Source: Eretmocerus hayati
Taxonomy: Eukaryota; Arthropoda; Insecta; Hymenoptera; Aphelinidae
Assembly: GCA_029851415.1 (NCBI GenBank)
Contig: CM056743.1
Span: 90,370,501-90,434,500, forward strand
Direction of reading: 5' to 3'
DNA: 64,000 nucleotides
Shown here: positions 6,470 to 53,355 of the stretch, in pieces
Layout of the letters: the number at the start of each line of letters is the position of its first letter
Position numbering within the stretch: the first letter of the stretch is position 1
The notes under the pieces: generated by a model
Database searches by the model: none
The model's input: only the letters and a program-made list of their open reading frames with translations
Told to the model about the DNA's origin: nothing
Program-made: the position numbers and the translations under genes

Positions 6470-7215
6470 CTTGAATCGCGGAAACAGGAAGAATCCGGTA
6501 AGAAAATGTGTCCAGACATTTTTAAAACGCGTTTATTTGTTCGTCTCTCAAAGATCTATGGAAAGTTGCTCTACAGATTTTGCAATAAAATGTATCCCTT
6601 GTGAGTTGTGGGGTCAAAACGATGAGAAACATGGGTCTTGGACGAAAATCCTACGAAGCCTTACATGAGAAAATGTGCGGAGATCTTTTCTGTTTATCTA
6701 TTGAAAATCCACCAAAAGTTGCTCTACACATTTCTCGAGAAAATGGAGTTCTCATGAGTTATGGGATCAAAACCGTGAAAAATGTGGACCTTGGACGGAA
6801 ATGTCTTGATTGCGGAAACAGGAAGCCTCATATGAGAGAATGTGAGGAGACCTATTTTGTTCATCCTTCAAAGATCCATGAAAAACTGCTCCGCACATTC
6901 TCGGATAAAACGTATTTCTCATGAGTTGTGGGGTCGAGACCGTGAAAATCATGGTCTGGGGCGGAAATACGCCAATTACGGAAACAGGAGGCCGTACGCG
7001 AGGAAATGTGTACAGACTTTTTTTGTTCATCTTTTAAAAATCCACCAGAAGTTGCTCTACACATTTTTCGACAAAATGTATACCTCATGAGTTATGGGAT
7101 CGAAACCGTGGAAAATATGGATCTTGGACGGAAATGTCTTGGTTGCGGAAACAGAAAGCCTCATATGAGAAAATGTGTGAAGAGCTTTTTTGTTCATCTT
7201 TCCAAGATCTAGAAA
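6470..7215 (+). repeat. ~167-bp tandem repeat array, 4-5 units
   Basis: The phrase GAGTT(G/A)TGGG(G/A)TC starts near 6603, 6756, 6923 and 7089, giving periods of about 153, 167 and 166 bp. Each unit also has TTGCGGAAACAGGAAGCC, CATATGAGAAAATGTG and GTTGCTCTACAC. Units are diverged by substitutions and small indels. ORFs of 60-110 codons across the array are by-products of the repeat. Confidence 0.7.
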
Positions 7216-7319
7216 AGTTCCTCAACACATTCTGACAAAAGTGTATCTTGACAACCGTATACCCACATTATTTCTGGATGCATAACAGCTCCTAATTTTG
7301 ATAGAACATGTCTCTCTAA

Positions 7320-13962: not shown

Positions 13963-16308
13963 AAGGAACAAAGAAAATTGAACTATATATCTGATTACGG
14001 TGATCTCGATTACCAGTGCAAGCACTGTGGGGCTGTTGAATGGAAAAATGAGTCAAGGAAATCTTCTTGTTGTTAAAAAGGGACAATTGTTTTATCTCCA
14101 CTAAGTAAATATGACAAAAGATTGAGGAAACTTCTCCTCTATGACGTTGCTTTCAGGCATTTGATACGCTATTACAACAACAGTTTCAGTTTTGCCACTT
14201 TCAGTGCTAATGTAAAAAACATGAGTGGTGTATACAATATAAAAATTCAGGGTCAAGTATTCCACACCAATCCTGATCACCTGCTTCCAAAAAAAACCAG
14301 AGGCCCAAATTATCACAGTTATATATATATGATGATCAATTTGCAACTGATGAAAGGTTGAAAGTTTTCGATGACGTTAGTCAAGGCAAAAACTCAGATG
14401 ACGAATTGAGGGAAAATCATATGAATATCTCAACAGATATCATGAAACAGAATCCTTATGCACAAAAATATAAGTATTTGTACAAAGTGACTAAGTGTGA
14501 AAAACTTCCAAATCACAAACTTTATTTCGTCAGAAAAAATGACAAACAGCAGCATAGATACAATAAACCCCTGACATCTGAGTGCGGAGGTATTGTAGTT
14601 TCAGACACGGGTATACCATACGACTTTGATTTATGTGTTTACCCTAAATTTATAGGAGAGAAAGTGAAAAGGACTTATTTGAACAAATTGTCACATCATG
14701 TTGATCCTATGGTTTTCCCCATATTCTATCCGAAAGGAAACCTAGGTTGGAGTACAGGTTACAGGAAAAAACCAAATGGATCCAAGAAAAATTTTCTTTC
14801 ACCCTTGGAATTTTATTCTTACCGTTTGTCTTACAGGCCTAATGACAGAAATTTTAGCCCATTATTATATGGAGGTAGACTGACTCAACAGAAGTTCATA
14901 AATGCTCACATCATGGTTGAAAGTAATAGAATGAATTTTTTGAAGAATAATCAGAAAAAACTAAGAATTGAATGTTGTCAAGGATTGTTTGACGCTGTGG
15001 AGAACGCTGCATCGAATGAATCCAAAAACTTCGAGAAAAAAGAGAGATTGGGAAATTTATATATTTCACCCTCAACATTTATTGGTGGTCCTCGTTACAT
15101 GCAACAGCATTATCAGGATGCAATGGCCATAATGAGAGAAAAGGGAAGACCAGATCTATTTATTACGATGACTTGTAATCCAAAGTGGGATGAAATTACG
15201 AGAGTTTTGAGAAAATTCCGAAGAGATACCACGCCTAATGATATTCCAAACATAATGGTTAGATTATTCAAAACTAAATTAGATGAGCTTTTGAAAGATA
15301 TCATGAGTAATGATATATTCGGTAAAGCCATAGCTCATGTGCATACAGTTGAATTCTAAAAAAGAGGACTTCCTCATGCTCATTTACTGATAACCTCACA
15401 TCCAAACCATAAGATGGGAACTCCTGACTTGATAGATAAATTCATCTCTGCTGAAATTCCAGAAAATGATAAAGTACTGCGTGAATTGGTCTTACAACAT
15501 ATGCTCCACGGTCCACATTCCAATAAAACAAAATGCTATGATCCGGAAACAAAAACTTGTGGAAAAAATGTTCCAAAACAATTTCAAGAATCGACATCCA
15601 TCAATAAAGATGGATATCCAATTTACAGGAGACGAGATGACAGATGTAGAGGTTATAGGTACATTTCAAAGAGAAATTGCGAGAGATTGCCAGTTGACAA
15701 TTCAATGGTTGTACCATACAATGGATTTTTGTTGAGAAAATTCAAATGCCATATAAATGTAGAATATTGCGCTTCAATAACAAGTATTAAATAAGTTTAC
15801 AAATATTTGCACAAGGGTCATGATGAAGCTCGTTGTAAGATAATCCAGAATCATGATGATCATGAAATTGTTAAAGAGATTCACAATGAAATTGATGAAT
15901 ACATTGATGGTAGATATTTAAGCCCGATGGGATGTGCATGGAGATTGGCTAAATTTCCAATAGTTGGTAGGAGTCATGCTGTTAAAAGATTATCAGTCCA
16001 TCTCGAAAATCAACAAAACATTCTTTTTGAGGAAGACAAAGAGGTTGAAGCGTTGATAAAATCGAAAACAGCATTGACTGCTTGGTTTGAATTGAATAGA
16101 AAGAACAAATTCGCTAGGGGCATAAGATACATAAATATCGTTAAATACTATCGATTTGACAAAAGAATGAAAGAATGGGTGAGGAGAAAGAACAACATCA
16201 AATACAAAATTATTGGCAGATTGAATGTTGTATCTCCGAAAGATAGCGAAAGATTCTTCCTGAAGTTGATATTGAATCGGAGGGAAAGGCGCTATTCCAT
16301 TCAGAGAT

Positions 16309-18036
16309 TTGAGGACTGTTGATGGGATAACTCATGATTCATTTCGAAAGGCAGCGATGGCTTTGGGTCTCATAGAAACAGATAAACAAATTTACGATAT
16401 TTTTGATGAAGCATGTTCAATCATGTTACCTCTACAGCTGAGAAAATTCTTTTCTTGGTTTCTCTTGTCTGGAACGTTCAATGCCAAAGATATTTGGGAA
16501 AGATATAAAAAATTTTCCACTGTAGATTTCAAAGAGGATTGTGACAATTCCGCTCTTTTTCACATTAACAGTATTTTGAGTTCAGACGACAAGTCCTGTT
16601 CCGATTTCAATCTACCTATGCCTGATGTGAACTATAAAAATGATCATGAAGATGAAAAAGACCATGATTCAACAAATCATGAATGCAAGATAAAATTCGA
16701 AGCGATGCATGCTATTTTGAAAGAAGATCAAAAATTATTTTTCGATCGATTAGTGATTATGGATAATATGATGAATTTTATAGATGGACCTGGAGGATGT
16801 GGTAAGACATTCTTGTACAAAACTTTGATATATTATTTTTTATCTATAGGTAAAAAAGTTTTATCTGTAGCTTGGACAGGAATCGCTTCAATCCTTTTGC
16901 CTAAAGGGCTGACAAGTCACAAAACTTTCAAGTTACCACTAAATTCAGATTCAATCGAAAGCATTTTCTTGAAATCTGATTTCGATAAGAAAAAATTGAG
17001 GGAGGCTCATGTTGTGGTTTGGGATGAGGCTTCAATGATTCCAAAAAAAGCATTTGATATTGTTGAGAGGACCTTGCGTGATGTAAGTTTTAGTGAGGAA
17101 CCATTTGGAGGGAAATTGGTGATTATGGGTGGAGACTTCAGGCAAACTCTGCCGATAAAGCCTAACGGATGTAGGAGCACGATCGTGAATGAAACAATAA
17201 AATCTTCACATCTCTGGCATCTATTCAATGTTATGCATTTGAGAAAGAATTTAAGAACTCAAAACACTGAATTTTCGAAATTTTTACTGAAAGTTGGTTC
17301 TAGTGAGATAAATCCTTTATGTGTTCCCGAAAAGTGGAGATCAAGTGATATATGTAAGAGAATTTTCGGTAAAATGAAAGGCATTGCACCTCTTGATAGC
17401 GTCGTTTTGGCTCCACATAATGAAGATACTCTGAGATTGAATCGGAAAATATTAAAAATGATGGATGGTGATACAAAAACATATTACAGTATAGATGTTG
17501 CTACTCACAAAGGAGTTGATCAATCTGACGATAACATTCATTCGAAATATCCAATAGAATTCCTAAATGACATCAGAGAAGGTCTTCCTCCACATAAATT
17601 GGAATTGAAAGTTGGCGCAATTGTGGTGCTGATTCGGAATTTAAGTGCAACAGATGGTTTGTGCAATGGAACTCGTTTGAGGATCAAATACTTATTCAAA
17701 TATAACATAGAGGCTAAAATAATAACTGGGGAAAAGAGAAGGAAGTGCGTATTTATACCTAGAATAACTCTGGACACTCGTGAATCATCCCTTCCATTCA
17801 TCCTATGTAGAAAACAATTCCCTATTGTTCTAGCTTTTGCAATGACAATAAATAAATCGCAAGGTCAGGATTTTGACGATGTTGGAATATTCATACGGAA
17901 GCCTTTATTTTCTCACGGACAGTTGTATGTTGCGTTGTCTAGAAGCAAAGATCCCGAAAAATTATTCATTGAAAATGAATTTAACGAATTGAATACGATT
18001 GAAAATGTAGTCTGGAAAGAAATTTTGGAAGACTGA
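16309..18036 (+). CDS. Helitron Pif1-family helicase segment
   Basis: An uninterrupted frame of 575 codons that begins inside the end of the Rep region (RTVDGITHDSF, typical of Rep-Hel proteins) after a frameshift relative to the upstream ORF. Walker A is GPGGCGKT at 16786-16809. Walker B is VVVWDEAS near 17012-17035. Motif III-like GGDFRQTLPI is near 17130, and the C-terminal motifs INKSQGQDFDDVGI and QLYVALSRSKD lie at about 17845-17955. These order and match the SF1B Pif1 helicases of Helitrons, which unwind DNA during rolling-circle transposition. All helicase motifs I can check are preserved even though the Rep half is broken. The first ATG may not be a true start. Confidence 0.85.
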   Translation: MRTVDGITHDSFRKAAMALGLIETDKQIYDIFDEACSIMLPLQLRKFFSWFLLSGTFNAKDIWERYKKFSTVDFKEDCDNSALFHINSILSSDDKSCSDFNLPMPDVNYKNDHEDEKDHDSTNHECKIKFEAMHAILKEDQKLFFDRLVIMDNMMNFIDGPGGCGKTFLYKTLIYYFLSIGKKVLSVAWTGIASILLPKGLTSHKTFKLPLNSDSIESIFLKSDFDKKKLREAHVVVWDEASMIPKKAFDIVERTLRDVSFSEEPFGGKLVIMGGDFRQTLPIKPNGCRSTIVNETIKSSHLWHLFNVMHLRKNLRTQNTEFSKFLLKVGSSEINPLCVPEKWRSSDICKRIFGKMKGIAPLDSVVLAPHNEDTLRLNRKILKMMDGDTKTYYSIDVATHKGVDQSDDNIHSKYPIEFLNDIREGLPPHKLELKVGAIVVLIRNLSATDGLCNGTRLRIKYLFKYNIEAKIITGEKRRKCVFIPRITLDTRESSLPFILCRKQFPIVLAFAMTINKSQGQDFDDVGIFIRKPLFSHGQLYVALSRSKDPEKLFIENEFNELNTIENVVWKEILED

Positions 18037-19332: not shown

Positions 19333-20326
19333 CAAAAAACAAACGTGCGTTGTAGAACGATAGTGGCTTACGTTGATGAATTCCTTGGAGAAGAACAATT
19401 CACAAGAAAAAAAGACAATGTTGAGGTCACAGTCATGAAAATATTATTGAACAACAACAGTGGTATCAAATTGCAGTGCAACTTATATGATGACAACATA
19501 CAGAAATTCAAAAAATCATTCAAATTGAATTGTGTAAGTGGTGAACAAATTGATGCATGGATAATTCACTAATTGATATAGAATATTAATGAATGTTATC
19601 CATTTATGTGCAGAAACTATTACTGGAAAAATGCTCCGTACAGGCATCAAATCAGAACTTCACCAATGGAAATCTCCCTTATGAAATAAGTTTGCAAAGT
19701 TATTCAACTGTGTTCAATTGCGGAGAATTCGGCAAACTATCTGAACCATTATCAACCAATTTCCGGGATGTACCATTGAAGAATGGATTGATAAGTATGT
19801 AGAATATGTACTGAAAAGAAGAGTATTTTTATATATATATTTATATACAGTGTGCATTTTTGAACTTGCAGAATTGGTTGATTATCTGAAAGATGATATT
19901 GTGAAGAAGAACAATAAGAGCGGAAATGAATGGATGGGGATTATCACTGACGGGAGGTATAAACTGAATTTTGTTTTGATAAAATGCGTGGATGAGATTT
20001 GTCCAGTAATAGAACGTGGGAACAAGATAGAATTAATAGGGGATCTGCAAGAAAACGGTAAATTTCAATCTATTGACTTGAATTGCGGTGAATTTTGTTC
20101 ATTATGATTCGATTCTTGATATTTTAAGGGGTGACATATGTTGTACGAGTACAATCTGCTGGTAATATAAAATCATTCCCAGATGAAACAATGGCTTTGG
20201 AGGAGTTACTTGTTGCTAACGAAATTTTTGTGAGAAAGGTAACATAAATCAAAATGAATCATATCATCATATAGTATGACTATCAAAATGTGACTCTCAT
20301 TCATAGGAAAGTGGCGATGGAGACAT
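19333..20326 (+). pseudogene. five-exon OB-fold/RPA1-like gene, last exon split by LTR element
   Basis: Exons fit GT-AG borders and keep one reading frame: about 19333-19533 (GTAAGT donor), 19614-19794 (GTATGT donor), 19872-20057 (GTAAAT donor), 20129-20238 (GTAACA donor) and 20307-20326. The last is cut after six codons by the LTR retrotransposon and resumes at 32632 to a TAA at 32643-32645. The first two exons look like a replication protein A-type OB fold (VTVMKILLNNNSGIKLQCNLYDDN, then NFTNGNLPYEISLQS); exon 3 may hold a second OB fold (WMGIITDGRYKLNFVLIK). RPA-like genes are known in plant and some animal Helitrons, where they would bind single-stranded DNA. No ATG is visible in exon 1, so a 5' exon is missing from this model. 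Confidence 0.5.
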
Positions 20327-21752
20327 TGCAACGTGGAACGTTGCAGCACGTTCTAGCTCGTCCCACGGAAGCTCTCGTCGTCACCTCGGGCAAAGTAATC
20401 AAGGTCTGATTTTTTGTTTGTCACACTTTTTTGTTGAGGTGCCCGAGGTGACGAGAAGAGGACGACGACGACGATTCAAATGGGCTGATGGCTCCCGCCA
20501 CCAGCGTGGTGGCAGCACCGTCCAGCCCACCAAGTCGGGCGGCGCAGCGCTCGCGCGGGCTTGAGGAAGTCGCGCCGCGCATCGCCGGCCGGCATTCTTG
20601 GGATGGCTGCCAGCCTGGCTAAACCTCCCCGTACTTTGCGCCTTTTGAATTCGACGTGCTCCAGGAAGTGACCCAGGACGGGTCGTGTGATCGCGTCGCG
20701 GGTGTACCGGACCTTTTGGTGGGTGTTTGTGCGTGTGGGTGAACAGTGTAGTGCCCAGACTTGTCAGCGCGTGCTGACGCGTGGCCACCCCACACGACCA
20801 CATCTCGCCCAGGGTGCCCCGCACTTGGAGGGTGACCCGGACTGGGCTCGAGAGAGCGAGAGAGAGCTGCAGCAGCGCAGTGAAGCGGCCCAGTAGCAGA
20901 GTAGCAACAGCGCAGCAGTAGCGCGACCATCAGGGTGCGTCCAGACGACGTCGACTGCGGTGAGTGGTCTTGCGTTTTCCCCCGGGTGCATCCGCCCTCA
21001 TCGTGACCCCCCCCGGGCGGAGAGTCGTGTCCAGGGCTACCGGGTGGCCTATTTCCCAGCTCGCGACGCGGTGTGTCCCTTTTATCCGCCGACCCATCGC
21101 GTCGCAACCGTGTTCCTCCAACTCCCCGTGCCAATTTCGTATGCACGTTTTGGCCATGCTGAGCCACGCGGGTCGTTATAGCGGCCATTTTGTGTCATCG
21201 CTCTAACTTCCGGAGACGAAGGCACGGCGAGTTGGAGAGGGACGGGTCCGCCGGCTGGGGAATAGCTCCCACCCATCGAGTTAGCTCCGCCCACCGTGTA
21301 TATGGGCATTTCTGCTACAAAGTGGTGCAGTGATTTTCGAGTGAGTGTATATGGGCGTTTTCGCTCCAAAGTGAGTTTCGCGAGATTGTTGCAGTGAGTT
21401 TATTGAACAACTTACGGACGATAAATGCATAGATCCGCCACAGATGGCGCTGTAAATTAGTTTTATTGGCCTGCGTGCCTCGAAATGAGTTCCTAATAGA
21501 AATAAATTCCGTTTGTATTTTCGTAATTCGGAGAGTGATTATTTCGACGATATATATATATATACAGTGTCCGCAGAATACTTTCGCGATTTTCAGGTGT
21601 TCCCAATTTGCCCCACCGTCCCGCCCCTCGTGGCGCGGGGTGCCTGGCCCTGACCTGATCCGGCCCAAATAAATGAGGTAGCGTTGGGTGGGTTTAGTAT
21701 TTCAGGTGGATGCTCCAGATTATCCCTGACCCATCTTGCCCCCATCGTTACA
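20327..21752 (+). repeat. 5' LTR of the 12.3 kb gypsy element
   Basis: 1426 bp, begins TG and ends CA. The first 19 bases form a palindrome (TGCAACG tggaa CGTTGCA). A second inverted pair, CACCTCGGGCA and TGCCCGAGGTG, lies at about 20390-20450. AATAAA occurs near 21667, which would place the poly(A) site about 80 bp before the LTR end. GGTGAGTGG at about 20959 is a plausible splice donor. A CAGATGGCGC word near 21440 resembles a CTCF core. Minus-strand ORFs of 75-190 codons here are by-products of GC-rich sequence. Confidence 0.93.
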
Positions 21753-21770
21753 TGGCGATCCTGCCAGGAT
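21753..21770 (+). promoter_or_regulatory. primer-binding site, tRNA-Arg type
   Basis: TGGCGATCCTGCCAGG starts exactly at the LTR border and is complementary to the 3' end, including CCA, of an insect tRNA-Arg as I remember it (ending CCTGGCAGGATCG plus CCA). The TGG start and zero spacing are as expected for a Ty3/gypsy minus-strand primer site. The tRNA identity rests on memory. Confidence 0.8.
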
Positions 21771-22018
21771 CACGGTTGACGCCCGGGTGCGTCCGGAACG
21801 AATCTGCGGACACTGCGCGTGCGCGTGAGAGCATTGACGCGGTACTACGCGAATTTAGGGTGAATATCGGGCCCTCGGTGTATGCCGATGATTTAATATT
21901 ATTCGCGTGCGATCCTGCGCGCCTACTCCCGAACACTCTGTGTCGACGAGTGTCATCACCCCCCACCCCCATAGTGCCGCGCATTCGCCCCGGCTCGCGC
22001 ACAGTGACCAGTTTGTAA

Positions 22019-23000
22019 AATACCCCGTCGTGTGGGTATTCGATTGAAAGCTCCTGACGAGTACTCTTCGTGACGATAAAGGGCGCTCCGCCATTGTCGC
22101 GCACACTAGCGCCACCTGGCGCGCGAGCTCCCTATTGACGCGGAACCCACCGTGTGGGTACTCGTTGAATCCATCTCGGCGAGTACTGTTCGGACCGCTA
22201 GGGGGCGCTCCGCCATCGTCGCGCACACCAGCGCCACCTGGCGCGCGAGCTCCCTATTGACGCGGAACCCACCGTGTGGGTACTCGTTGAACACGTCTCG
22301 GCGAGTACTATTCGGACCGCTAGGGGGCGCTCCGCCATCGTCGCGCACACCAGCGCCACCTGGCGCGCGAGCTCCCTATTGACGCGAAACCCACCGTGCG
22401 GTTACTCGTTGAACACGTCTCGGCGAGTACTATTCGGACCGCTAGGGGGCGCTCCGCCATCGTCGCGCACACCAGCGCCACCTGGCGCGCGAGCTCCCTA
22501 TTGACGCGAAACCCACCGTGTGGGTACTCGTTGAACACGTCTCGGCGAGTACTATTCGGACCGCTAGGGGGCGCTCCGCCATCGTCGCGCACACCAGCGC
22601 CACCTGGCGCGCGAGCTCCCTATTGACGCGAAACCCACCGTGTGGGTACTCGTTGAATACGTCTCGGCGAGTACTATCCGGACCGCTAGAGGGTGCTCCG
22701 CCATCGTCGCGCACACCAGCGCCACCTGACGCCCGAGTCCTTCTTTTGACGCGGACCCCACCGTGTGGGTACTCGTAGGTCTTGGCTTCGGGAATACTAT
22801 CCGGGACGATAGAGGGCGCTTCGCCACCGTGGCGCACACTAGCGCCACCACGCGCGCGAGTTTCTTTTTGGAACAACACCCGTCGTGTGGGTACTGGTTG
22901 GATAGCTCTTGAGGAGTACTTCACGGCCCGCCACAGGGGGCAGCACTGTCGCTTCACCCTTCGGCGCCATTGACCTCCGGGGGCTCCGACTAATATTTAC
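22019..23000 (+). repeat. ~122-bp tandem array in retrotransposon leader with CTCF-like motifs
   Basis: About eight units. The five central ones (22141-22750) are almost identical with a period of exactly 122 bp; flanking units at 22019-22140 and 22751-23000 are diverged. Each unit carries GGGTACTCGTTGAA, GGCGAGTACT, CCGCTAGGGGGCGCTCC (22195, 22317, 22439, 22561, 22683) and, about 18 bp later, the opposite-strand word CAGCGCCACCTGGCG (22229, 22351, 22473, 22595, 22717). Both words resemble the CTCF core and point toward each other. The array lies between primer site and gag. ORFs read through it are artefacts of the 122-bp period. Confidence 0.9.
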
Positions 23001-23695
23001 CCCACCATGTGGGTACTCAAACTGAAGCTCGTGAAGCACCTATATCGGTAGTCGTTTCCGTTTTGACGTCGAATGAAGTTATACCGATTTTTCGTCAATT
23101 ACGTAATTGAACCACGCGACTCGATTCCTACGAATTTGCTCGCTGCGATAAGCGTTGCGAAAAATTTGTTCCATCAATCAAGCCGGTAGAGGGCGTCTCC
23201 GAAAATTCCGATTCCGTTTTGGGGGCAATATGCTTCGTAGCTTTCGGGTTTTCGGACTATTTTCTGTAGAATATGCACAACTCTCATCGGATAGATCAAC
23301 GGAACATGCGCTCACATCGCGAAGCTAGGTCGAGTAATGTATAAAATCGTAGGTCACTGTTCGAGCCGCGCGGAATAACTCGAGGAGCTAGTGCGTTCCT
23401 ACACCAATTGCGGAACCTGCGCAGGATACACGACTCTCCGTCCCCATCTGATTACATTGCATGCCATATTCATGATAGTAGTGTGAGTAGAGGTGGAGGG
23501 GGACTACCGTATCCTTATCCTTGCCCAAATTTCCCAAATTTTCCGTCGAGGATTCAAAACCTCAACAAGGAGTCCGCCGAGACAATCGTCTCAGCAGGGT
23601 CCGCCAGTGGGTTTTGGGGATCCGCCTATCTCATCGAGGGAACCAATACCTGAATTATTCCGCGACAAGTTGAGCGTCATCGCGTGGGCAGAAAA
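23001..23695 (+). other. remaining 5' leader of the gypsy element
   Basis: About 0.7 kb between the tandem array and gag. It contains one more diverged CTCF-like word (CCGGTAGAGGGCG near 23181) and no supportable ORF. Confidence 0.5.
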
Positions 23696-26203
23696 ATGGT
23701 CGGAAAGAAACCTTCGATGTCGATCCCTTCGGAGGGTCAACGGAAGAAGATGACAATATCACCGGAGATTGCCGAAATACTCGGAAGAGACCAGCGATAT
23801 GTAGGCGCGGCCAAGTTAGTCGCGAATCTTAGTTATGACGAAGTTATGGCCCGCCTGAGCGAGGCGGGGCTCAATCTAAGGGGCACCCTTAACGCGACGA
23901 GACTCCGTTTGCTACGATACGACCTTATGACAATCAACCCGAGCGAGAAGGTTCCGTGGGACCCCGCGGTCGACGAGCTACCGAAGGAACCCAGTCCACT
24001 CTCGCCAGCGGCTAGACGAGCGATACAAGAGTTAGAGGGAGTTGAACTGGGCGACGACAGCGAACCTGGAGCAGATTTCGAGTACGAACCGGAGGATCCC
24101 GTGGTTGTTACGTCGACAACTGGGGTCACACAGAGTGCGAATGTGACAACTATGGCCAGCACCTCCGCGACCGCGACGGTCACCAGTTCACACGGGTCAA
24201 TCGCGACACCAGGTCACGTTATGCCAGCCGGTTACCAGAATTTGATAGCGGCTGCCGAATCTTTCCGCCAAATGTGCCAGAACACGCCCTTCGCCGGATG
24301 GGCTAATGCAGCACTGCCACACCCAACCGCGATGGGAGGCTGGAACATTCCGCCGTTCATGCCTCCGTTCCTGCCACCGAATGTGACTTCTACAGCTTCA
24401 ATACGAGAAGTAAGAGACTCGGAGTCGGAACGAGACCAGAGAACGACAGCGGGAAGAAGTAACGACAGTTCAGGTGACGATGCTGAGTATATCCGCCAAC
24501 AACGTGACCGGTTGCAGAACCTGCGTGGCAGCCAGACCACCAACCAGGTGCCTTTTAACCCGCAAGCTCCACCTATCGCCCAGACGCCGGTAGGCCCTAG
24601 AACTCAGGAGACGTCGCAGGGAGCTTATGCTGGCGAGACTCGCCAGCGACCACGTGAAGATCGCCGGGAGCAGGTGAGAACTACACTGCCAATGCATGGT
24701 GAACCCGCGCAGCCAGGCCCTACTCAACAAGCTTTGATGCAGGAGCAAGCTCCGCCCGGAATCCGCCACTCCAAAGACCAAAGTTCTCGCCGTGACTGGT
24801 TCTCGGGGTCGTCTAGCAGCGACGAATGGGAAATGGAGACACCGGTGTCGAGGAGGTCCCGCTCCAAGGGCAAACGAGTAGTTTCAAAGGAGCAGAAAAA
24901 GTCGGAGCGAATCGTACAAGTAATAAAGACGTTTGCGAGCTGGAAAATTTCGTTCGACGGGGAACCGAAGGGCCGTAAAGATAAGGCTGAAGAGTTCCTA
25001 GCCTCCGTAAAAGAGTGCATGGAAGCGATCGACCTCTCTGACGCGGAGGTCTTAGCAGCGATGCCGAGTATATTGACCGATCGAGCGCGCACGTGGTATC
25101 GGACACATCGTAGGGGAATCGCGACCTGGAGAGACTTCAAGCAAGCGTTTCGCGATCAGTATGTCGGACACGTAGACCATCAGGATTTGATGGAGGAGTT
25201 ATATCGTCGTACGCAGGGGAAAAACGAACAAATCGCGCCGTATCTGACTTGTATCCGCCTTATCGTGGGGCATTTCAAGCATCCGCCGAGCGAGGAAGTA
25301 GTTTTTAACATCGTGATCCGCAATTTGAGACCGGAAGTCCGTCGATACTTAGAGACTAAGGACGTGAGAACGCTGACCGAGATTCAATATTATGGCAAAA
25401 AGTTTGAAAAACAGCTGGAGTGGGACGCGCGATACATAGCTCCGCCATCGCAGGACAAATCCCGCATCCCGGGGGCGGCCTACCAAGGTTCGAGTAGCAC
25501 TTCAAGAAAAGTGGCCTGCACTGAATTGGAAGAAGCCACCGGACAGGTCGCTGGATTGACGGTTGGGAATAAACCCGAAGCGAAGGCCCCGGAGTCCAAG
25601 CCGCAACCGGCCACCACCCCTGCGAACCCTGTCAACGCTGAAGGCGGCCAAAAAGGCAAGGGAAGGGGAAGAAGGGGAGGTAAGAAAAATGAAAATGGGA
25701 CGAGTGCAGGTGCAGCAGCGGAGACCGCTGCAGTGACGACCAACGCCACCAAACCCGCCAGCACTTCAACGCCCACGCCTTCCGCACCTCCGCCACCGAC
25801 CCCACCAGCACCACAAGCGGGACCATGGGGCTATCCGTGGGGATTTCCGCCCTACCCGTACTGGCAAATGCCAGGGGCGTCTGGGATGCAGAGGAATGCG
25901 AGGCCAGCGAGCGCCGAGAGTTTACAGAAGCGACAGGAACAGTTGACACGAGGAGCGTGCTTCAACTGCAGCGAAACTGGACATCTCTCGCGCGAGTGTC
26001 CGACCCGGCAATGTTATACTTGCCATGCAACGGGCCACGCTTCGCATGAATGTCCAAAAAGAAATGAGAAATGCCAAGGTTGTGGCAAGGTTGGATATTC
26101 AGTTAAGACATGCCCAGATTGCAAATGGGCGTTAAAGTACTCGGGAAACGGACCCGCGGGGGCGCAGGGGGGAACCCCTCCTGCTCCCCAAAATTCGAAG
26201 TGA
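23696..26203 (+). CDS. gag: Gag polyprotein (12.3 kb gypsy element)
   Basis: About 835 codons; ATG at 23696 is preferred because the in-frame upstream start at 23684 is a GTG. The N-terminal third is acidic and Ser/Thr/Pro-rich. A retrotransposon capsid-like region spans about residues 400-580 (FLASVKECMEAIDLSDAEVL, AMPSILTDRARTWYR, WRDFKQAFRDQY, YLTCIRLIVGHFK). A Gly/Lys/Pro/Ala-rich linker follows. The C-terminus has three zinc knuckles: CFNCSETGHLSREC, CYTCHATGHASHEC, and a third (CQGCGKVGYSVKTC) where the histidine is replaced by tyrosine. Gag packages the genomic RNA into particles. The gene is uninterrupted. Its 3' end overlaps pol by about 94 bp in another frame, which points to -1 frameshifting for Gag-Pol, although I saw no classical slippery heptamer. 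Confidence 0.92.
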   Translation: MVGKKPSMSIPSEGQRKKMTISPEIAEILGRDQRYVGAAKLVANLSYDEVMARLSEAGLNLRGTLNATRLRLLRYDLMTINPSEKVPWDPAVDELPKEPSPLSPAARRAIQELEGVELGDDSEPGADFEYEPEDPVVVTSTTGVTQSANVTTMASTSATATVTSSHGSIATPGHVMPAGYQNLIAAAESFRQMCQNTPFAGWANAALPHPTAMGGWNIPPFMPPFLPPNVTSTASIREVRDSESERDQRTTAGRSNDSSGDDAEYIRQQRDRLQNLRGSQTTNQVPFNPQAPPIAQTPVGPRTQETSQGAYAGETRQRPREDRREQVRTTLPMHGEPAQPGPTQQALMQEQAPPGIRHSKDQSSRRDWFSGSSSSDEWEMETPVSRRSRSKGKRVVSKEQKKSERIVQVIKTFASWKISFDGEPKGRKDKAEEFLASVKECMEAIDLSDAEVLAAMPSILTDRARTWYRTHRRGIATWRDFKQAFRDQYVGHVDHQDLMEELYRRTQGKNEQIAPYLTCIRLIVGHFKHPPSEEVVFNIVIRNLRPEVRRYLETKDVRTLTEIQYYGKKFEKQLEWDARYIAPPSQDKSRIPGAAYQGSSSTSRKVACTELEEATGQVAGLTVGNKPEAKAPESKPQPATTPANPVNAEGGQKGKGRGRRGGKKNENGTSAGAAAETAAVTTNATKPASTSTPTPSAPPPPTPPAPQAGPWGYPWGFPPYPYWQMPGASGMQRNARPASAESLQKRQEQLTRGACFNCSETGHLSRECPTRQCYTCHATGHASHECPKRNEKCQGCGKVGYSVKTCPDCKWALKYSGNGPAGAQGGTPPAPQNSK

Positions 26204-29200
26204 AAAGCGAATGCGATGCAGCTCCAGTGATGCTTGGTGCAGACTCCCTCGCGGCCGAGAGGGAAGTCAACAGCGAGATTGGTAACGCGTATCCATCTCG
26301 GCTGGTAGCAAGCAACTGGACGATTAGCGACGACGACGAAGAAACGCCTGACCTGTATGCCGAGGGGAATCATGCAAATTCCACCGAATCTGATTTGAAT
26401 CCGCCTCCGCCAAGGGAATGGCACGAAGTAGAGATGACTCCAGCGATGGGTGCCATACGCAAACACCCACTGACAACGAGTAGAAGCGACGCTGATGAAA
26501 TGATTGGAGGAGTGGACGGGGGAGTTAGGGGACAACGTGAGACTGATCACCTCACTGAGTTACCTACAATCGACCCGAAAACGCTCTGCCACGAAGAAGC
26601 AGCGGTTGCCGACACACCAAGCCTAGAGGAAGCTCGAACGGGGGACGCCCCAGCCGACGCCATCAGGGCGAAAGTGGAAACTTGGAGTCAGGAAGAGATT
26701 GCAGATGGACCCGCCGCACAAGCCGCACCTCGTAACTTCGTCGAGGTCATCTTGGGAGGAAAGTCATTCATGGCGTTGTATGACCCTGGAGCGCAGGTGT
26801 CGTTCGTCGGGCCAAAAATAGCGAAATTTTACGAGAAGCGTCTTTTTCACAAGCGAAGCGTGTTGAGAGGAGCTGTGGGCAAAAACGTCACCCAAGCATT
26901 GGGACTGTTGAAGATGACTATGGAAATTGATGGACATTCCCGAACCATTGTGATGGAGGCAGTGCACGACACGTCGTACGACATGGTTCTGGGAATGGAC
27001 TTTATGAATGCGTGGAAATCCGACTCTCTAAATGCCGATGGGCAATGGAGAGTACTTCAAGGAGACTACCGAAATTTCGTAGGACGTCGGAAAGAAGAAC
27101 CGGAAAACCGCATATACGCCGAGTGCGCGGGACTGGTAGTAGTAGAAGAGGGGGGTAAAACCCACCTAGAAGAAGTGGTGCGTGAAACGACCGCCAAGGC
27201 AGCAGGCAAAGTTGGACTAACAGATCGCGGGGTTCATAAAATTGAACTGATAGATTTTACTCCTGTCCGCCATCGTCCGCGACGCCTCTCTCCCAAGATG
27301 CTCGAGATTGCTAGGGAGGAGGTCAAAGCCATGTACGGTCTCAAGCGTATCCGCCCTTGCCAGAGTGCTTGGAGTAGTGCTCCAGTGTTGATCAGAAAAT
27401 CTGACGGTACTTACCGTTTCTGCATCGACTATCGAGACTTGAATAAAAAGACGAAGAAGGACACGTACCCCCTTCCCAACATGGACTCCATCTTGGATAA
27501 GTTGCGGAAGGCGAAGTACCTGTCTAAGATAGATTTAAAAAGCGCGTACCATCATATTCCGGTAGCGGAGGAGTGCCAGGAGTATACCTGTTTCAGCCTT
27601 CCAGGCGTCGGCTCCTGGTGCTGGTGCGTAATGCCCTTCGGGCTCTGTAATGCACCCGCGACCTGGCAGCGCATGATCGACGAGATACTAGGCCCAGAGC
27701 TAGAACCATTTGTCTTCGTGTACTTAGACGACATTATTATCGCGACAGACACGTATGAAGCTCATGAAAAATACCTAAAGATAGTGTTGGAGCGGCTTGT
27801 AGATGCCGGACTCCAGATAAATCCGGAAAAATGTCAGATTTGCTGCAGCGAGGTGAATTACCTCGGCTTTATCTTGGACTCCGAAGGCCTCCGCCCGGAT
27901 CCCGAAAAGGTAACGCCCGTACGGGAATTCCCTCCGCCAAGAAACCTGCGACAATTGCGATCGTTCCTGGGGATGGTGACGTGGTACTCAAGATTTATCG
28001 ACCATGACGCCGAGATAAAAGTACCGTTACTGAAGCTTCTCCGGAAAGATACGCCATGGTCATGGGGCGAAGAACAGCAAGAAGCATTCGATAAACTGAA
28101 ACAGGCCTTGACGAGCGCGCCGGTGCTCGCTAGACCTGATTTCTCAAAAATGTTCGCTATACAGACCGACGCATCCGCCTTTAGCTTGGGAGCCGTGCTG
28201 ACCCAAGAAGGGGAAGACGGTGAGCACCCTATTGTCTACCTGAGCCGCAGTCTTTCACCAGCAGAGCGAAATTATACGGTCAGCGAGAGGGAGCTGCTAG
28301 CGGTGGTCTGGGCGATCAAAAAACTACGACCTTACATTGAAGGGTACCAATTTCAGGTGATAACAGATCACAGTGCTCTAAAATGGCTCCAAAATCTGAA
28401 AGATCCGACTGGGCGTCTCGCTCGCTGGGCACTCGAACTCCAGAATTGGGACTTCGAGGTAATACACCGGAGTGGAAAACTCCATAAAGTGCCAGATTGC
28501 CTGTCTCGAATGAACGAGCCAGAAGACGCCGAAATCGGGGCAGTAGAAGTAACAGACGAGACGATAGATGCCGTGGATCCGACGGTAACCGGAATACAAT
28601 GTTCCGCCGAAGACGCGAAGAAGGATTCCGAATACTTGAAGCTGGCCGAGAAGATTCGTGCGAATCCGGACCAGTTCAAGGATTGGAGGGAGGTGAATGG
28701 CTTGATTTATCATCATAGCCATAACACGCTTCTGGATCCAATCACATTTCCGGAAGAAAAATGGAGACTTGTCGTGCCAGTCCATAGGAGACGTGACGCT
28801 CTAGAGCGAGCTCATTGCCTCGCCTCGTCAGGTCACATGGGCATTGAAAAAACGTATGATCGACTAGCTCGAGATTACTACTGGCAAGGCATGTACACAG
28901 ATGCGAAAACATTCGTGAAAGAGTGTCAATTGTGCCAACAATACAAAATGCCCCAAACAGGCCCGCTTGGCCACATGGGAAACAGAGTAGTAGAGCGATC
29001 ATGGTCCGTCATCTCCGCCGACCTGATGGAATTTCCGCCGAGCAAAAAGGGGTTCAAGTACTTGCTGGTTATACAGGACTTGTTCACACGCTGGGTGGAA
29101 GTAAAACCATTACGACGCGCTGAGGGGAAGGCGGTAGCCGCCGCGATTGAAGAATTGATCCTGTTCCGTTGGGAGACGCCACTGTACTTTCTATCCGACA

Positions 29201-29865
29201 ATGGTAAGGAGTTCGACAACAAAATTGTGGACGCCATGTTGGAAGAACACGGAGTACGTCACATCAAGACGCCACCATATTGGCCGTCAGCCAACCCAAC
29301 GGAGCGTTCCAATAAGACGCTCAAAACAATGATCTCTCAATTTGTGAAGAATGATCACCGCAACTGGGATGACCACATCCATGAGTTCCGCCATGCGATG
29401 AACACCGCAGTGCAATCCAGCACGAAAGTCTCGCCAGCCTTTCTCAATTTCGGACGTCATCCCACTCCAGTAAAAAGCCTGCGTCGCGAACTGGAGGGCG
29501 AAAAATTGATTGAGAAGATGGGAGTCCAAGACTGGATGGATAGAATGAAACGCCTAGACGCGTTGCGGGAACTAGTCGTCCGCCATAACGCTGAGAGTCG
29601 GGCGAAGCAAGCTGAAACTTATAACAAGGGTAGGAAGAATTTCACGTTCAATGTGGGAGATGTAGTGGGAAGGAAAACGCATTTCCTGTCTAGCGCCGCG
29701 AACCGTTTCAACGCCAAGTTAGCTCCGAAATACGAGGGTCCGCTGACCATAGTAGAAGTCAAATCTCCGGTCGTTTACGTAATGGAGGGACCCACTGGCC
29801 AACGGACTGCTCCAACCCACATATCCCACCTCAAACGTTGGATCCCACCCCGAAAGACTGGCTAG
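26110..29865 (+). CDS. pol: Pol polyprotein: protease, RT, RNase H, integrase
   Basis: A 1251-codon intact frame. The aspartic protease active site is near residue 225 and reads YDPGA, with Pro in place of the usual Ser/Thr. RT spans about residues 400-640 with FCIDYRDLN, the motif A aspartate in SKIDLKSAYHH, FGLCNAPATWQ and YLDD at residues 538-541. RNase H covers about 690-810 (QTDASAFSLGAVL, ITDHSALKWL). Integrase starts with an HHCC zinc domain (His at 902 and 908, then CQLC) and has the D,D-35-E core (SADLMEF, LSDNGKEFDN, NPTERSNKTLK). The C-terminus ends THISHLKRWIPP, a common gypsy ending; I see no chromodomain. All catalytic positions I can check are kept, so the copy may be competent. 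Confidence 0.93.
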   Translation: MPRLQMGVKVLGKRTRGGAGGNPSCSPKFEVKSECDAAPVMLGADSLAAEREVNSEIGNAYPSRLVASNWTISDDDEETPDLYAEGNHANSTESDLNPPPPREWHEVEMTPAMGAIRKHPLTTSRSDADEMIGGVDGGVRGQRETDHLTELPTIDPKTLCHEEAAVADTPSLEEARTGDAPADAIRAKVETWSQEEIADGPAAQAAPRNFVEVILGGKSFMALYDPGAQVSFVGPKIAKFYEKRLFHKRSVLRGAVGKNVTQALGLLKMTMEIDGHSRTIVMEAVHDTSYDMVLGMDFMNAWKSDSLNADGQWRVLQGDYRNFVGRRKEEPENRIYAECAGLVVVEEGGKTHLEEVVRETTAKAAGKVGLTDRGVHKIELIDFTPVRHRPRRLSPKMLEIAREEVKAMYGLKRIRPCQSAWSSAPVLIRKSDGTYRFCIDYRDLNKKTKKDTYPLPNMDSILDKLRKAKYLSKIDLKSAYHHIPVAEECQEYTCFSLPGVGSWCWCVMPFGLCNAPATWQRMIDEILGPELEPFVFVYLDDIIIATDTYEAHEKYLKIVLERLVDAGLQINPEKCQICCSEVNYLGFILDSEGLRPDPEKVTPVREFPPPRNLRQLRSFLGMVTWYSRFIDHDAEIKVPLLKLLRKDTPWSWGEEQQEAFDKLKQALTSAPVLARPDFSKMFAIQTDASAFSLGAVLTQEGEDGEHPIVYLSRSLSPAERNYTVSERELLAVVWAIKKLRPYIEGYQFQVITDHSALKWLQNLKDPTGRLARWALELQNWDFEVIHRSGKLHKVPDCLSRMNEPEDAEIGAVEVTDETIDAVDPTVTGIQCSAEDAKKDSEYLKLAEKIRANPDQFKDWREVNGLIYHHSHNTLLDPITFPEEKWRLVVPVHRRRDALERAHCLASSGHMGIEKTYDRLARDYYWQGMYTDAKTFVKECQLCQQYKMPQTGPLGHMGNRVVERSWSVISADLMEFPPSKKGFKYLLVIQDLFTRWVEVKPLRRAEGKAVAAAIEELILFRWETPLYFLSDNGKEFDNKIVDAMLEEHGVRHIKTPPYWPSANPTERSNKTLKTMISQFVKNDHRNWDDHIHEFRHAMNTAVQSSTKVSPAFLNFGRHPTPVKSLRRELEGEKLIEKMGVQDWMDRMKRLDALRELVVRHNAESRAKQAETYNKGRKNFTFNVGDVVGRKTHFLSSAANRFNAKLAPKYEGPLTIVEVKSPVVYVMEGPTGQRTAPTHISHLKRWIPPRKTG

Positions 29866-29919
29866 ACGCATGAGTAGAAATTCCGCCATCCGCCTCAACG
29901 AAGAGTAATAAGGAAGTTT

Positions 29920-29943
29920 TTTTTTTGTTCTGCTTCCTTGCAG
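29920..29943 (+). promoter_or_regulatory. candidate splice acceptor upstream of ORF3
   Basis: A run of T/C (poly-T followed by TTCTGCTTCCTTGCAG) ends at AG 29943, three bases before the ATG of ORF3. It is a strong 3' splice site context exactly where an env-type subgenomic mRNA would be spliced. Confidence 0.6.
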
Positions 29944-29945
29944 GT

Positions 29946-31001
29946 ATGGCAGAAGATCCGCCTCGAGACCGTAGCTGCTCACCCTGCCCGGCGGATTTCC
30001 GGAGCATCGCGAGACCCGACGACCTTCTGGAGGCAACGACAGTCTGGAGGTCAAACTCCCAGGTACGTCGGGCTCGCAGGGCATCTCGCGAGAGGAGTGG
30101 AAGTCGTGGACCGCTAACGTCAGACAGTGGTCTGAGCGACGACCACTCCTCGCGAGATACTCCGGAACCCCGTCGAGCCGAACAACAACAGCCACAACCA
30201 GCGCATGAAGGAGGACAAGACAGCGGAAACAGCAGTCCGCTTACCCCACGTGAAGACAGAGCGCCTCCCAGCATCGGTGGACCGTCGCGCCACCTAGGAG
30301 CGATTCCGCGCGCCCCGATGGCGGAGAGACGCTCGCGAGAGAGACGACGCCGCGTGAGGCCCGAACCAGTGGGTGCGGAAGCCCCAGCTCAGTATTGCCC
30401 GGCGGCAGCACCTCTCGCAGTGCTCGCGGAGGAAGCGGAACCGACCCTGGATTCCGGCTTGGATCCTGTGGCGGACTCCGCTAGAGCTCAACAAGAGCTA
30501 CAAGATTGGTTGGAGCCCAGGGGTGCTCCAACCCGGCAGGAAGTGGACCCCGGACAGTTTGAGTGGCCACCATCTCCGCCATCTATCCGCCGCACCACGA
30601 CTCCACCGAGAACGATACCCCGGCCGATCCCTTCCACCACTCGTGGAGAAGCAGCTGGAGCCGCAGCGCCAGATGAGTTCCGCGAACCTGCGCTCATCAT
30701 CGCCCCATCAAACCTCCCGGCCGCAGAACGACGTGAGCTGGAAACAGCCGTCGAACTCCAGCTGCGCCAAAACTGGGATCCCGAACGAGGCTGGCAAGGA
30801 TACCTGGACCGGAGAGACGAGGCGGCCCAAATGCCCGGTTGCTGGTCGCCGTCGCAGTCACCATGCCGCAGTCAGTGCAGGAGCAAATGTATGCGGCCTT
30901 CTTCGACAGAATCCGCCAGGCTCAATAGAGCCGAAGAAATCCGCCAAGTAAGAGAAATTTTTGATATCCTTCTTTCCCAAGTATCCGAACCCAGATCCTA
31001 G
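29946..31001 (+). CDS. ORF3 in env position, Arg/Pro/Glu-rich, unknown
   Basis: About 351 codons from ATG 29946; an upstream in-frame TTG at 29925 lies in the polypyrimidine tract and is not a likely start. The product is hydrophilic, rich in Arg, Pro, Ser and Glu, with several RRRR/RERR-like basic runs near the middle. A helical stretch follows (LPAAERRELETAVELQLRQ), and a short Cys/Ser/Arg cluster (CWSPSQSPCRSQCRSKC) precedes a C-terminal helix. It has no signal peptide, no transmembrane segment and no furin-like fusion architecture that I can identify, so it is not an ordinary envelope. It begins 80 bp after pol, right after a splice-acceptor-like sequence. Function unknown; RNA or DNA binding is a guess from composition. 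Confidence 0.65.
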   Translation: MAEDPPRDRSCSPCPADFRSIARPDDLLEATTVWRSNSQVRRARRASRERSGSRGPLTSDSGLSDDHSSRDTPEPRRAEQQQPQPAHEGGQDSGNSSPLTPREDRAPPSIGGPSRHLGAIPRAPMAERRSRERRRRVRPEPVGAEAPAQYCPAAAPLAVLAEEAEPTLDSGLDPVADSARAQQELQDWLEPRGAPTRQEVDPGQFEWPPSPPSIRRTTTPPRTIPRPIPSTTRGEAAGAAAPDEFREPALIIAPSNLPAAERRELETAVELQLRQNWDPERGWQGYLDRRDEAAQMPGCWSPSQSPCRSQCRSKCMRPSSTESARLNRAEEIRQVREIFDILLSQVSEPRS

Positions 31002-31184
31002 TAGTTAGAGAACCCTGCCCCTCTGATTTGAGAATTCGAGTTGATTTAGCCCTTAAGATTAGTTGATAGATTTGATTTTGATTTTTTGATCAATGTAGCA
31101 ATGTATGATGATTCCGCCGAGGTAACGATGAGGGTGGATGTGGGCGAGACGAGACCACTCCGAATTCTTCTCACCCAGGAGGGT

Positions 31185-31206
31185 GAGGGGGAGAAGCCGG
31201 GGGTAA
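31185..31206 (+). promoter_or_regulatory. polypurine tract of the gypsy element
   Basis: GGAGGGTGAGGGGGAGAAG followed by CCGGGGGTAA sits directly before the 3' LTR, the place for plus-strand priming. Confidence 0.7.
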
Positions 31207-32631
31207 TGCAACGTGGAACGTTGCAGCACGTTCTAGCTCGTCCCACGGAAGCTCTCGTCGTCACCTCGGGCAAAGTAATCAAGGTCTGATTTTTTGTTTG
31301 TCACACTTTTTTGTTGAGGTGCCCGAGGTGACGAGAAGAGGACGACGACGACGATTCAAATGGGCTGATGGCTCCCGCCACCAGCGTGGTGGCAGCACCG
31401 TCCAGCCCACCAAGTCGGGCGGCGCAGCGCTCGCGCGGGCTTGAGGAAGTCGCGCCGCGCATCGCCGGCCGGCATTCTTGGGATGGCTGCCAGCCTGGCT
31501 AAACCTCCCCGTACTTTGCGCCTTTTGAATTCGACGTGCTCCAGGAAGTGACCCAGGACGGGTCGTGTGATCGCGTCGCGGGTGTACCGGACCTTTTGGT
31601 GGGTGTTTGTGCGTGTGGGTGAACAGTGTAGTGCCCAGACTTGTCAGCGCGTGCTGACGCGTGGCCACCCCACACGACCACATCTCGCCCAGGGTGCCCC
31701 GCACTTGGAGGGTGACCCGGACTGGGCTCGAGAGAGCGAGAGAGAGCTGCAGCAGCGCAGTGAAGCGGCCCAGTAGCAGAGTAGCAACAGCGCAGCAGTA
31801 GCGCGACCATCAGGGTGCGTCCAGACGACGTCGACTGCGGTGAGTGGTCTTGCGTTTTCCCCCGGGTGCATCCGCCCTCATCGTGACCCCCCCGGGCGGA
31901 GAGTCGTGTCCAGGGCTACCGGGTGGCCTATTTCCCAGCTCGCGACGCGGTGTGTCCCTTTTATCCGCCGACCCATCGCGTCGCAACCGTGTTCCTCCAA
32001 CTCCCCGTGCCAATTTCGTATGCACGTTTTGGCCATGCTGAGCCACGCGGGTAATTATATAGCGGCCATTTTGTGTCATCGCTCTAACTTCCGGAGACGA
32101 AGGCACGGCGAGTTGGAGAGGGACGGGTCCGCCGGCTGGGGAATAGCTCCCACCCATCGAGTTAGCTCCGCCCACCGTGTATATGGGCATTTCTGCTACA
32201 AAGTGGTGCAGTGATTTTCGAGTGAGTGTATATGGGCGTTTTCGCTCCAAAGTGAGTTTCGCGAGATTGTTGCAGTGAGTTTATTGAACAACTTACGGAC
32301 GATAAATGCATAGATCCGCCACAGATGGCGCTGTAAATTAGTTTTATTGGCCTGCGTGCCTCGAAATGAGTTCCTAATAGAAATAAATTCCGTTTGTATT
32401 TTCGTAATTCGGAGAGTGATTATTTCGACGATATATATATATACAGTGTCCGCAGAATACTTTCGCGATTTTCAGGTGTTCCCAATTTGCCCCACCGTCC
32501 CGCCCCTCGTGGCGCGGGGTGCCTGGCCCTGACCTGATCCGGCCCAAATAAATGAGGTAGCGTTGGGTGGGTTTAGTATTTCAGGTGGATGCTCCAGATT
32601 ATCCCTGACCCATCTTGCCCCCATCGTTACA
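31207..32631 (+). repeat. 3' LTR of the 12.3 kb gypsy element
   Basis: 1425 bp, TG...CA. Compared with the 5' LTR it differs by one C fewer in a C-run (about 31890), GGTAATTATATAGCGG in place of GGTCGTTATAGCGG (about 32050), and one TA unit fewer near 32440. AATAAA lies near 32547. It is followed by the ACAT duplication and the tail of the interrupted exon. Confidence 0.93.
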
Positions 32632-32645
32632 ACATAGAAATTTAA
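32632..32645 (+). pseudogene. 3' tail of the interrupted RPA-like exon
   Basis: After removal of the 4-bp duplication the reading frame of the exon at 20307 continues for three codons to TAA at 32643-32645. This confirms the insertion site and orientation of the disrupted gene. Confidence 0.55.
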
Positions 32646-39108: not shown

Positions 39109-39428
39109 ACGGCACTCGGAAACAACTTGGACACAGCGAATATGTACATCAGGGTGGGCTGAAAATAAACTTTTTTTCTTAGATCGATGCGCTTGGGGTC
39201 GGAAAAGTTAGGTTTCGACTAGTGGATGTGAAAATTTTTCCGCTGGAGGCTGGATAATGAAATCTTCCGTCCGAGCAAGAGCCGTGGGGATTTTTTTTAA
39301 TAACATGCATTTAAATGGGAAACTGTATAATTTATACATCTTTTTTTCTTAGATAAATATAGATGATCTTGGAACCGATCGTGGAGGACTAGTGTTTGTG
39401 CAAATGAATATACACAAAATAATTGCAA

Positions 39429-39488
39429 TTACACATGTATTGCTACGTTTCGTCCACATATTTTGTGAACCTCTTCAGGCTGTAACAT
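39429..39488 (-). ncRNA. candidate hammerhead ribozyme motif (left arm)
   Basis: Minus strand contains CTGAAGA, then GGTTCAC/GTGGAC forming a 6-bp stem with a loop, then GAAAC. These are the conserved core strings and stem II of a hammerhead in the right order. Stems I and III are weak in my manual fold. Hammerheads are known in Penelope-like elements, which makes the location apt. The mirrored copy on the right arm has CTGAAGA changed to ATGAAGA. Confidence 0.45.
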
Positions 39489-39816
39489 AAGATTAAACAC
39501 ATAGGAGAATTTTTGTAACAAGATCACCAAGCTCGAGATTCACAATATAAAATCACAATATCCACATACCTAGAAATTTACAACATGGTCACATAATTAT
39601 TTTTATATAAAAACGTGGAAACTCACTGCAATGTGAGTCCAGTTTTACGTCAATCTTTCGAGTATTGCGAGCAAACTGTTTGTTATGATGGGAAATGTAG
39701 ATAGAGAGGAGAGGAGAAGGTATCATGTGGTAATAGAGGGAAGGGAGGGATGAGGAGTGAGAAAGACCAATCGAATACAGCTGATAGTATATATATGTAT
39801 AAGATAGAACAATAAA

Positions 39817-40203
39817 TTATTGTAAGATCGATCTATAAACTTGATTCAAGTGACAAGTGTCATCTTTCAAGTTGATATTGTTTTTATCAGAATTTATAAA
39901 AATCATCTCTGAGAGTGTTCTTTTATGAAAGTTAGGTTCTCTATCTAAAATCACCGTATTTTTCCAGTCAAATTCATGGCCTAAATTCTTTCGGTGCAAT
40001 GATACTACTGAATTGGGCGTCTTGAAACTCATGTGTTCACCAATTCTGATATCTAAGGCCCTTTTTGTCTCACCAACGTAACTTGCTTGACAAATTTTGC
40101 AATTGATCTTGTAAACTACGTTAGGATTTTCAAACTTCTTTAGTGGATCTTTGCCTAATTTTATCACTTTTTCGAGACCTTGATTCATTTTCAATAAATT
40201 CAC
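39817..40203 (-). pseudogene. inverted copy of the GIY-YIG endonuclease region
   Basis: A 128-codon minus-strand frame repeating the C-terminal end of the Penelope-like protein (KINCKICQASYVGETKRALD...). It differs from the plus copy at a few residues (for example NCKIC versus NCKNC, HKRTL versus HKTTL). It lacks the RT and so represents the left inverted arm, not a separate gene. Confidence 0.8.
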
Positions 40204-40218
40204 AAAATCGACAATCCA

Positions 40219-41927: not shown

Positions 41928-41990
41928 ATGTTACAGCATGAAGAGGTTCACAAAATATGTGGACGAAACGTAGCAATACATGTGTAATTG
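41928..41990 (+). ncRNA. candidate hammerhead motif (right arm), core mutated
   Basis: The same sequence as the left-arm candidate, in plus orientation, with ATGAAGA in place of CTGAAGA at the core. The stem II and GAAAC strings are unchanged. Loss of the core C would be expected to kill cleavage. Confidence 0.35.
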
Positions 41991-53354: not shown

Positions 53355-53355
53355 T

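Follow-up and report, generated by a model that had tools for sequence, protein, structure and literature searches.

The leader of a Ty3-type LTR retrotransposon in Eretmocerus hayati contains a tandem array of 122-bp units, in which CTCF-like words are arranged as convergent pairs. The words are genuine, occur far more often than chance predicts and are restricted to the element. The data suggest, at a probability of about 0.55, that the array offers 14 strong candidate sites for host CTCF, or for another protein that reads the same word, and acts as an insulator or barrier like the leaders of gypsy and ZAM. Judged from the DNA sequence, binding by CTCF or by a protein of the same word is very probable; by analogy with the fly elements, a bound array would have reasonably good prospects of insulating.

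The window, that is, the whole 64-kb stretch of DNA analysed, contains the nearly intact element at 20323-32635, with 12,305 bp between the target duplications. Its assignment to the Ty3 type rests on two LTRs with TG...CA ends, a short target duplication, a primer site and the order of gag and pol, with integrase located after RT and RNase H. Both gag and pol are open. The parts of the element were as follows:

20323-20326, target-site duplication ACAT, left
20327-21752, plus strand, 5' LTR, TG...CA ends, 99.5% identical to the 3' LTR
21753-21771, plus strand, primer binding site, directly after the 5' LTR
23684-26203, plus strand, gag ORF as listed, with Ty3 capsid and zinc knuckle
26110-29865, plus strand, pol ORF in the -1 frame relative to gag, with protease, RT, RNase H and integrase
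29925-31001, plus strand, third ORF (358 aa), rich in proline and arginine, located between pol and the 3' LTR
31181-31206, plus strand, purine-rich tract before the 3' LTR
31207-32631, plus strand, 3' LTR
32632-32635, target-site duplication ACAT, right

The primer binding site is one that we take to resemble tRNA-Arg. In the 5' LTR, a TATATA run is located at 21551 and an AATAAA at 21668, and the promoter presumably lies near this stretch. The two LTRs differed by 2 mismatches and 4 gap openings, and the insertion is young; divergence among the array units far exceeds that between the LTRs, which dates the array to before the insertion. The third ORF, considered as a candidate env gene, yielded no Pfam match at E ≤ 1e-3, and Rfam and tRNA scans of the 64-kb window yielded no match. 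Among the best 120 of 4135 matches to the element's pol, the first by E-value was an Ambystoma protein (41%), and the top identities were 65-69%, Trichogramma included.

Other features were observed in the same window. A second Ty3-type element at 53005-58461 has 350-bp LTRs that are 97.4% identical, together with gag and pol, and the first match listed for it was from the sawfly Diprion similis (72%). At 39344-42072, inverted arms of ~849 bp (97.6% identical, ~1 kb apart) flank and enter an ORF with a reverse transcriptase domain. A Helitron-like N-terminal domain and a PIF1-type helicase were located at 14358-18036, and 3.6 copies of a 167-bp unit lie in tandem at 6655-7246.

The earlier note on this DNA had described a 122-bp tandem array between the primer site and gag, and both a repeat finder and an alignment confirmed it. 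Tandem Repeats Finder reported 22029-22860 with a period of 122, 6.8 copies and 91% matches; the alignment resolved eight units, each 122-123 bp long, and a ninth that is heavily decayed. The units start at 22027 (u1), 22149 (u2), 22271 (u3), 22393 (u4), 22515 (u5), 22637 (u6), 22759 (u7) and 22882 (u8). Over 122 columns, the differences from u3 numbered 0 in u5, 2 in u4, 5 in u2, 13 in u6, 22 in u1, 30 in u7 and 52 in u8. The array and its words are listed below, with fly-matrix scores:

22027-23004, plus strand, tandem array, units u1-u8, between primer site and gag
22073-22087, plus strand, u1 plus word, 13.4 bits, p 1.4e-5
22108-22122, minus strand, u1 minus word, 19.0 bits, p 6.1e-8
22195-22209, plus strand, u2 plus word, 18.0 bits, p 2.0e-7; identical at 22317, 22439 and 22561
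22230-22244, minus strand, u2 minus word, 19.0 bits, p 6.1e-8; identical at 22352, 22474 and 22596
22683-22697, plus strand, u6 plus word, 14.5 bits
22718-22732, minus strand, u6 minus word, 16.0 bits
22806-22820, plus strand, u7 plus word, 16.4 bits, p 1.2e-6
22841-22855, minus strand, u7 minus word, 12.99 bits, p 1.8e-5
23183-23197, plus strand, single plus word downstream of the array, 14.7 bits, p 5.4e-6
21437-21451, plus strand, 5' LTR word, 17.8 bits, p 2.8e-7; 100 bp before TATATA at 21551
32318-32332, plus strand, 3' LTR word, the same as the 5' LTR word
22273-22309, plus strand, inverted-repeat module of u3, arms CGTGTGGGTACTCG and GCGAGTACT; equivalent place in each unit

The plus word, CCGCTAGGGGGCGC, was exact in u2-u5, and the variants were CCGCTAGAGGGTGC in u6, ACGATAGAGGGCGC in u7 and ACGATAAAGGGCGC in u1, the last with an additional G-to-A change outside the degenerate R position. 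The minus word, GCGCCAGGTGGCGC on the minus strand, was exact in u1-u5 and had one change in u6 and two in u7. The 15-bp windows of the two words face each other 20 bp apart, and the next plus word starts 72 bp beyond the preceding minus word. The plus word had been attributed to each of five near-identical units; the word itself was as described, and its exact form was limited to four of them. Against the core CCASYAGRKGGCGC, the plus word of u2-u5 had 1 mismatch, which is the fit of 13 out of 14 claimed previously, and the minus word, also said to fit, had 2 mismatches. Three further CTCF-like words had been proposed. The one near 22801-22821 was good at 22806-22820 and the one near 23181 was fair at 23183-23197, while the one at 22930-22946 failed, with a fly score of 1.7 (p 3.6e-3) and a human score of 5.6 (p 4.3e-4). 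The comparison of the position with that of the gypsy insulator was upheld for position and words, since clustered tandem candidate sites lie between the LTR and gag. The CTCF-like word in each LTR and the inverted repeat in each unit are additional to the earlier description.

Word counts were compared with chance by using hand-entered versions of the fly CTCF matrix MA0531.1 and of a human CTCF matrix; MA0531.1 is the Drosophila CTCF matrix (PMC7880997). At p ≤ 1e-5, the fly matrix found 17 words in the 64 kb, all within the element: 13 in the leader, one per LTR, two in the coding part and 0 in the other 51.7 kb. At the same threshold, the human matrix found 6 words, namely five plus words of the leader and one outside at 39099, and no minus word passed. 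When one unit was shuffled 20,000 times, the better fly-matrix word was equalled 0 times, the weaker word 2 times and the two words together 0 times; with 20,000 column-permuted fly matrices, the better word was equalled once and two words never. With the human matrix, a weaker control than the fly matrix, one word was equalled in 4 of 20,000 shuffles and by 11 permuted matrices, and two words by none. The 13 fly-matrix words in the leader compare with a mean of 0.05 and a maximum of 2 in shuffled sequence. Scoring no better than shuffled sequence had been named earlier as grounds for abandoning the idea, and with the hand-entered fly matrix the unit words stood far above the shuffles.

Similar results were obtained by other routes. 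The matrix-free pattern YAGRKGGCGC was seen 14 times (0.27 expected; 0 of 100 shuffles reached 14), and with one mismatch 24 times (9.2 expected). When noise of up to 30% was added to the matrix, no more than one of the top 15 words fell outside the element. A published fly blocking site scored 11.1 and its mutant -1.1, and the 14 words of u1-u7 all scored at least 12.99; the mutant of that fly site has a 2-bp change that abolishes enhancer blocking (PMC7880997). A search with an alignment of 16 RT proteins identified one locus in viral contigs (42%) and 62 loci in genome contigs (30-49%), the latter in bacterial and archaeal records that we assumed to be eukaryotic contaminants. These loci are too distant to share the leader and were used as background: 63 loci with distantly related pol, 379 kb in all, yielded 5 words. 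In viral contigs, an exact 20-base word had no match and an RT piece had none confirmed. A gapped pattern of the convergent pair matched at least 120 viral stretches, with one match each in the 80 listed, and these were taken as chance. An ORF read across the array had no relative among 269 candidates.

To follow the words over the family, the host genome (692 Mb, 17 contigs) was searched, which returned 69 match rows; 40 of 123 candidates were scored. The family occupies at least 40 separable places, the window copy included. The array was present in all 39 other copies; each fetched stretch contained 4 to 21 words (p ≤ 1e-5), and the convergent pairs (≥11.09 bits) numbered 2 to 10, with a median of 5. 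From these, 281 units were cut out, of which 263 were distinct, with u3 as reference. The cutting anchor was TGTGGGTAC with up to 2 substitutions; the CTCF words lie outside it, and its choice favours apparent conservation of the left arm over copies. Copies and units share their history, and 263 units are not 263 independent cases, so circular registers and per-copy counts were used.

Mismatch in the 18 core columns was 0.080 against 0.129 overall in all 263 units, where 11 of 122 registers were as low. The contrast grew with divergence: 0.102 against 0.211 in 130 units at ≤90% identity and 0.120 against 0.292 in 65 units at ≤80%, with 1 of 122 registers, the true one, as low in the former and 1 of 122 in the latter. 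Matrix information correlated negatively with mismatch (rho -0.61 in all units, -0.64 at ≤90% and -0.57 at ≤80%; 1 of 122 registers each). In every one of the 39 copies, the strict core, with degenerate columns dropped, was less changed than the remainder of the unit, and the R column of the plus word held A in 199 and G in 64 units, which together make all 263. In units 80-90% identical to u3, the plus word scored at least 11.09 bits in 55/65 (null mean 33.9, maximum 47) and the minus word in 61/65 (40.3, 51); in units 70-80% identical, the figures were 25/29 (5.9, 12) and 24/29 (7.3, 14). Below 70% identity, the plus word was kept in 23/36 (5.4, 10), whereas the minus word was lost (6/36; null mean 7.2, maximum 12). 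Conservation among related copies, which the earlier note had made a test of the idea, thus held for the core relative to the rest of the unit and failed for the minus word in the most decayed units.

In 38 copies, the downstream word at 23183-23197 had a mismatch of 0.023, compared with 0.066 in the sequence surrounding it. Conservation of the LTR word did not exceed that of its surroundings (69 of 111 windows did as well), and its last core C was T in 23 of 24 other readable copies. The bases substituted in the units were not those that the matrix would predict (618 of 2000 simulations reached as high a value). In the window's own units alone, a weak test, 6 of 54 core cells were changed against 59 of 312 (p 0.11). 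The copy data raised our confidence in a protein-binding array and lowered it for explanations by RNA structure or neutral expansion.

An inverted-repeat module, GTGTGGGTACTCG...GCGAGTACT, adjoins the CTCF-like words. Its arms were conserved in the window, with changes in 4 of 69 arm cells compared with 61 of 297 elsewhere (p 0.0016). The units could instead form repeated hairpins in the sense RNA, with the CTCF-like words being stem sequence, but we consider this improbable. Whole units did fold better than shuffled ones in the sense strand (z -3.26 for u3, -2.55 for u1 and -2.04 for u7; antisense u3 0.25), as did the left module of u3 (sense -3.67, antisense -1.51). Over the eight units, 86.5% of cells were paired and 7 of 500 shuffles were as high, a figure in which 1 of 39 pairs (58-102) was one column off in the structure used; over 263 units, the right-half stems were paired at 0.854 against 0.849 in shuffles (0 of 300 as high). 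That last signal was gone in diverged units (85 of 300 as high), the left module reached only -0.5 in u1, -0.4 in u7 and -1.5 in u8, the whole of u8 only -0.74, and the covariation term was +0.97. Hairpin 1 was paired at 0.923 against 0.922 (117 of 300 as high), and in diverged units all 300 shuffles were as high. Pairing over copies was no better than that of shuffled letters, and worse in diverged units, which makes a second protein word a likelier reading of the arm than a stem. Scored by itself, the right arm was ordinary (54/122). A single stem made of the plus and minus words was also rejected (186 of 300 shuffles as high). The second conserved module of the unit, GTGTGGGTAC..., may in turn be bound by a partner protein.

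Neutral slippage, with the words as accidental passengers, is slightly less probable still and already hard to hold. The nearly identical middle units and diverged edge units are the usual pattern of expansion, and tandem repeats occur in 19 of 49 fly LTR-element 5' UTRs (PMC8872304); against this, the core columns of the 39 copies showed constraint that matched the register of the matrix, and two such words in one unit arise by chance less than 1 time in 20,000. A more serious competitor, though an unlikely one, is that a zinc-finger protein, CTCF or another of the same word, binds the array as an activator, a pausing signal or a silencing target and does not insulate. The array belongs to the part of the leader that is transcribed, close to where the promoter presumably lies; zinc-finger genes are numerous in the host (207 matches in the search described below), with CTCF unrecognised among them; and HP1 and RpL22 have been reported to occupy tandem-repeat 5' UTRs in fly elements (PMC8872304). 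The RpL22 word, however, was missing from the leader, which held 0 of 17 window matches at up to 3 mismatches.

The search for CTCF in the host with the human CTCF finger region gave no recognisable CTCF among the 150 of 1334 candidates scored, with exons taken singly; the best match was 45% over 160 residues and by look consisted of generic zinc fingers. Insects in general have CTCF (PMC5094011), so the missing match was taken as a search miss; it nevertheless held our confidence down. Zinc-finger genes form clusters in the host, at G000:C1:17342067-18910879 and elsewhere, many of them on contig 1 near 17-19 Mb. Ovaries and early embryos are where transposition counts. Mosquito CTCF is raised in both (PMC1174870).

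For the insulator or barrier that we favour, the following course is proposed. Host CTCF, or another protein that recognises this word, would bind the convergent pairs, 20 bp apart, in the integrated DNA; once bound, it would keep the promoter and leader open and would shield them from enhancers and silencers outside the element and from the spread of silent chromatin. We infer the identity of the binding protein, the insulation and the benefit to the element. It is conceivable, but we would not bet on it, that the family evolved a portable CTCF-pair insulator independently of gypsy, with selection keeping the sites while the spacer drifts.

Insulators in retrotransposon leaders and CTCF sites in mammalian mobile elements are already known. 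In gypsy (mdg4), 460 bp of the 5' transcribed untranslated region contain 12 Su(Hw) sites (PMC7800606). The present element resembles gypsy as a Ty3-type element with clustered putative sites for a host zinc-finger protein in its leader, and it differs in having CTCF-like words, convergent pairs and 122-bp units. A Su(Hw) array was rejected: with the Su(Hw) word used here, the 1.9-kb leader held one Su(Hw)-like word, with one mismatch, at 23457. The tandem-repeat 5' UTR of ZAM has insulator activity in fly and human cells, and host proteins have been reported on the leaders of gypsy and ZAM; in the available text on ZAM, CTCF has 0 occurrences (PMC8872304). Our element shares with ZAM the tandem-repeat 5' UTR; unlike in ZAM, for which HP1 and RpL22 are reported, the RpL22 word is absent. 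Idefix of Drosophila is likewise an LTR retrotransposon with an insulator, but in its LTR (PMC7800606). Loss of the CTCF site in the HTLV-1 provirus changed DNA and histone methylation and left the kinetics and level of virus expression undisturbed (PMC8174705). HTLV-1 is thus an integrated retroelement with CTCF at a single site, as opposed to the array of CTCF-like words described here. Rodent SINEs, by contrast with the element here, are short and are not known to have a leader array. They are mobile elements that hold about 20% of rodent CTCF sites (PMC3491045). Among insects, the Mag-lineage element cqgypsy_25 of Culex is also Ty3-type with tandem repeats in its 5' UTR and a tRNA-Arg primer site, and CTCF has 0 occurrences in the available text of that report (PMC3286476). 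Drosophila CTCF is described as largely excluded from transposable elements (PMC2797089, PMC3491045), with 27 of 2,267 sites, and 15 of 261 young sites, overlapping them (PMC3491045). Among the literature matches listed, each available in part, none reported a CTCF array in an insect LTR element, and such an array in the leader is new if binding is confirmed. Known fly leader insulators use Su(Hw) and other insect proteins; the array described here, if our reading is true, would represent convergent recruitment of CTCF, the insulator protein that is shared with vertebrates. It would also have spread convergent pairs, 2 to 10 per place, to at least 40 places of a single genome, a natural series of array lengths for testing convergent CTCF pairs in an insect.
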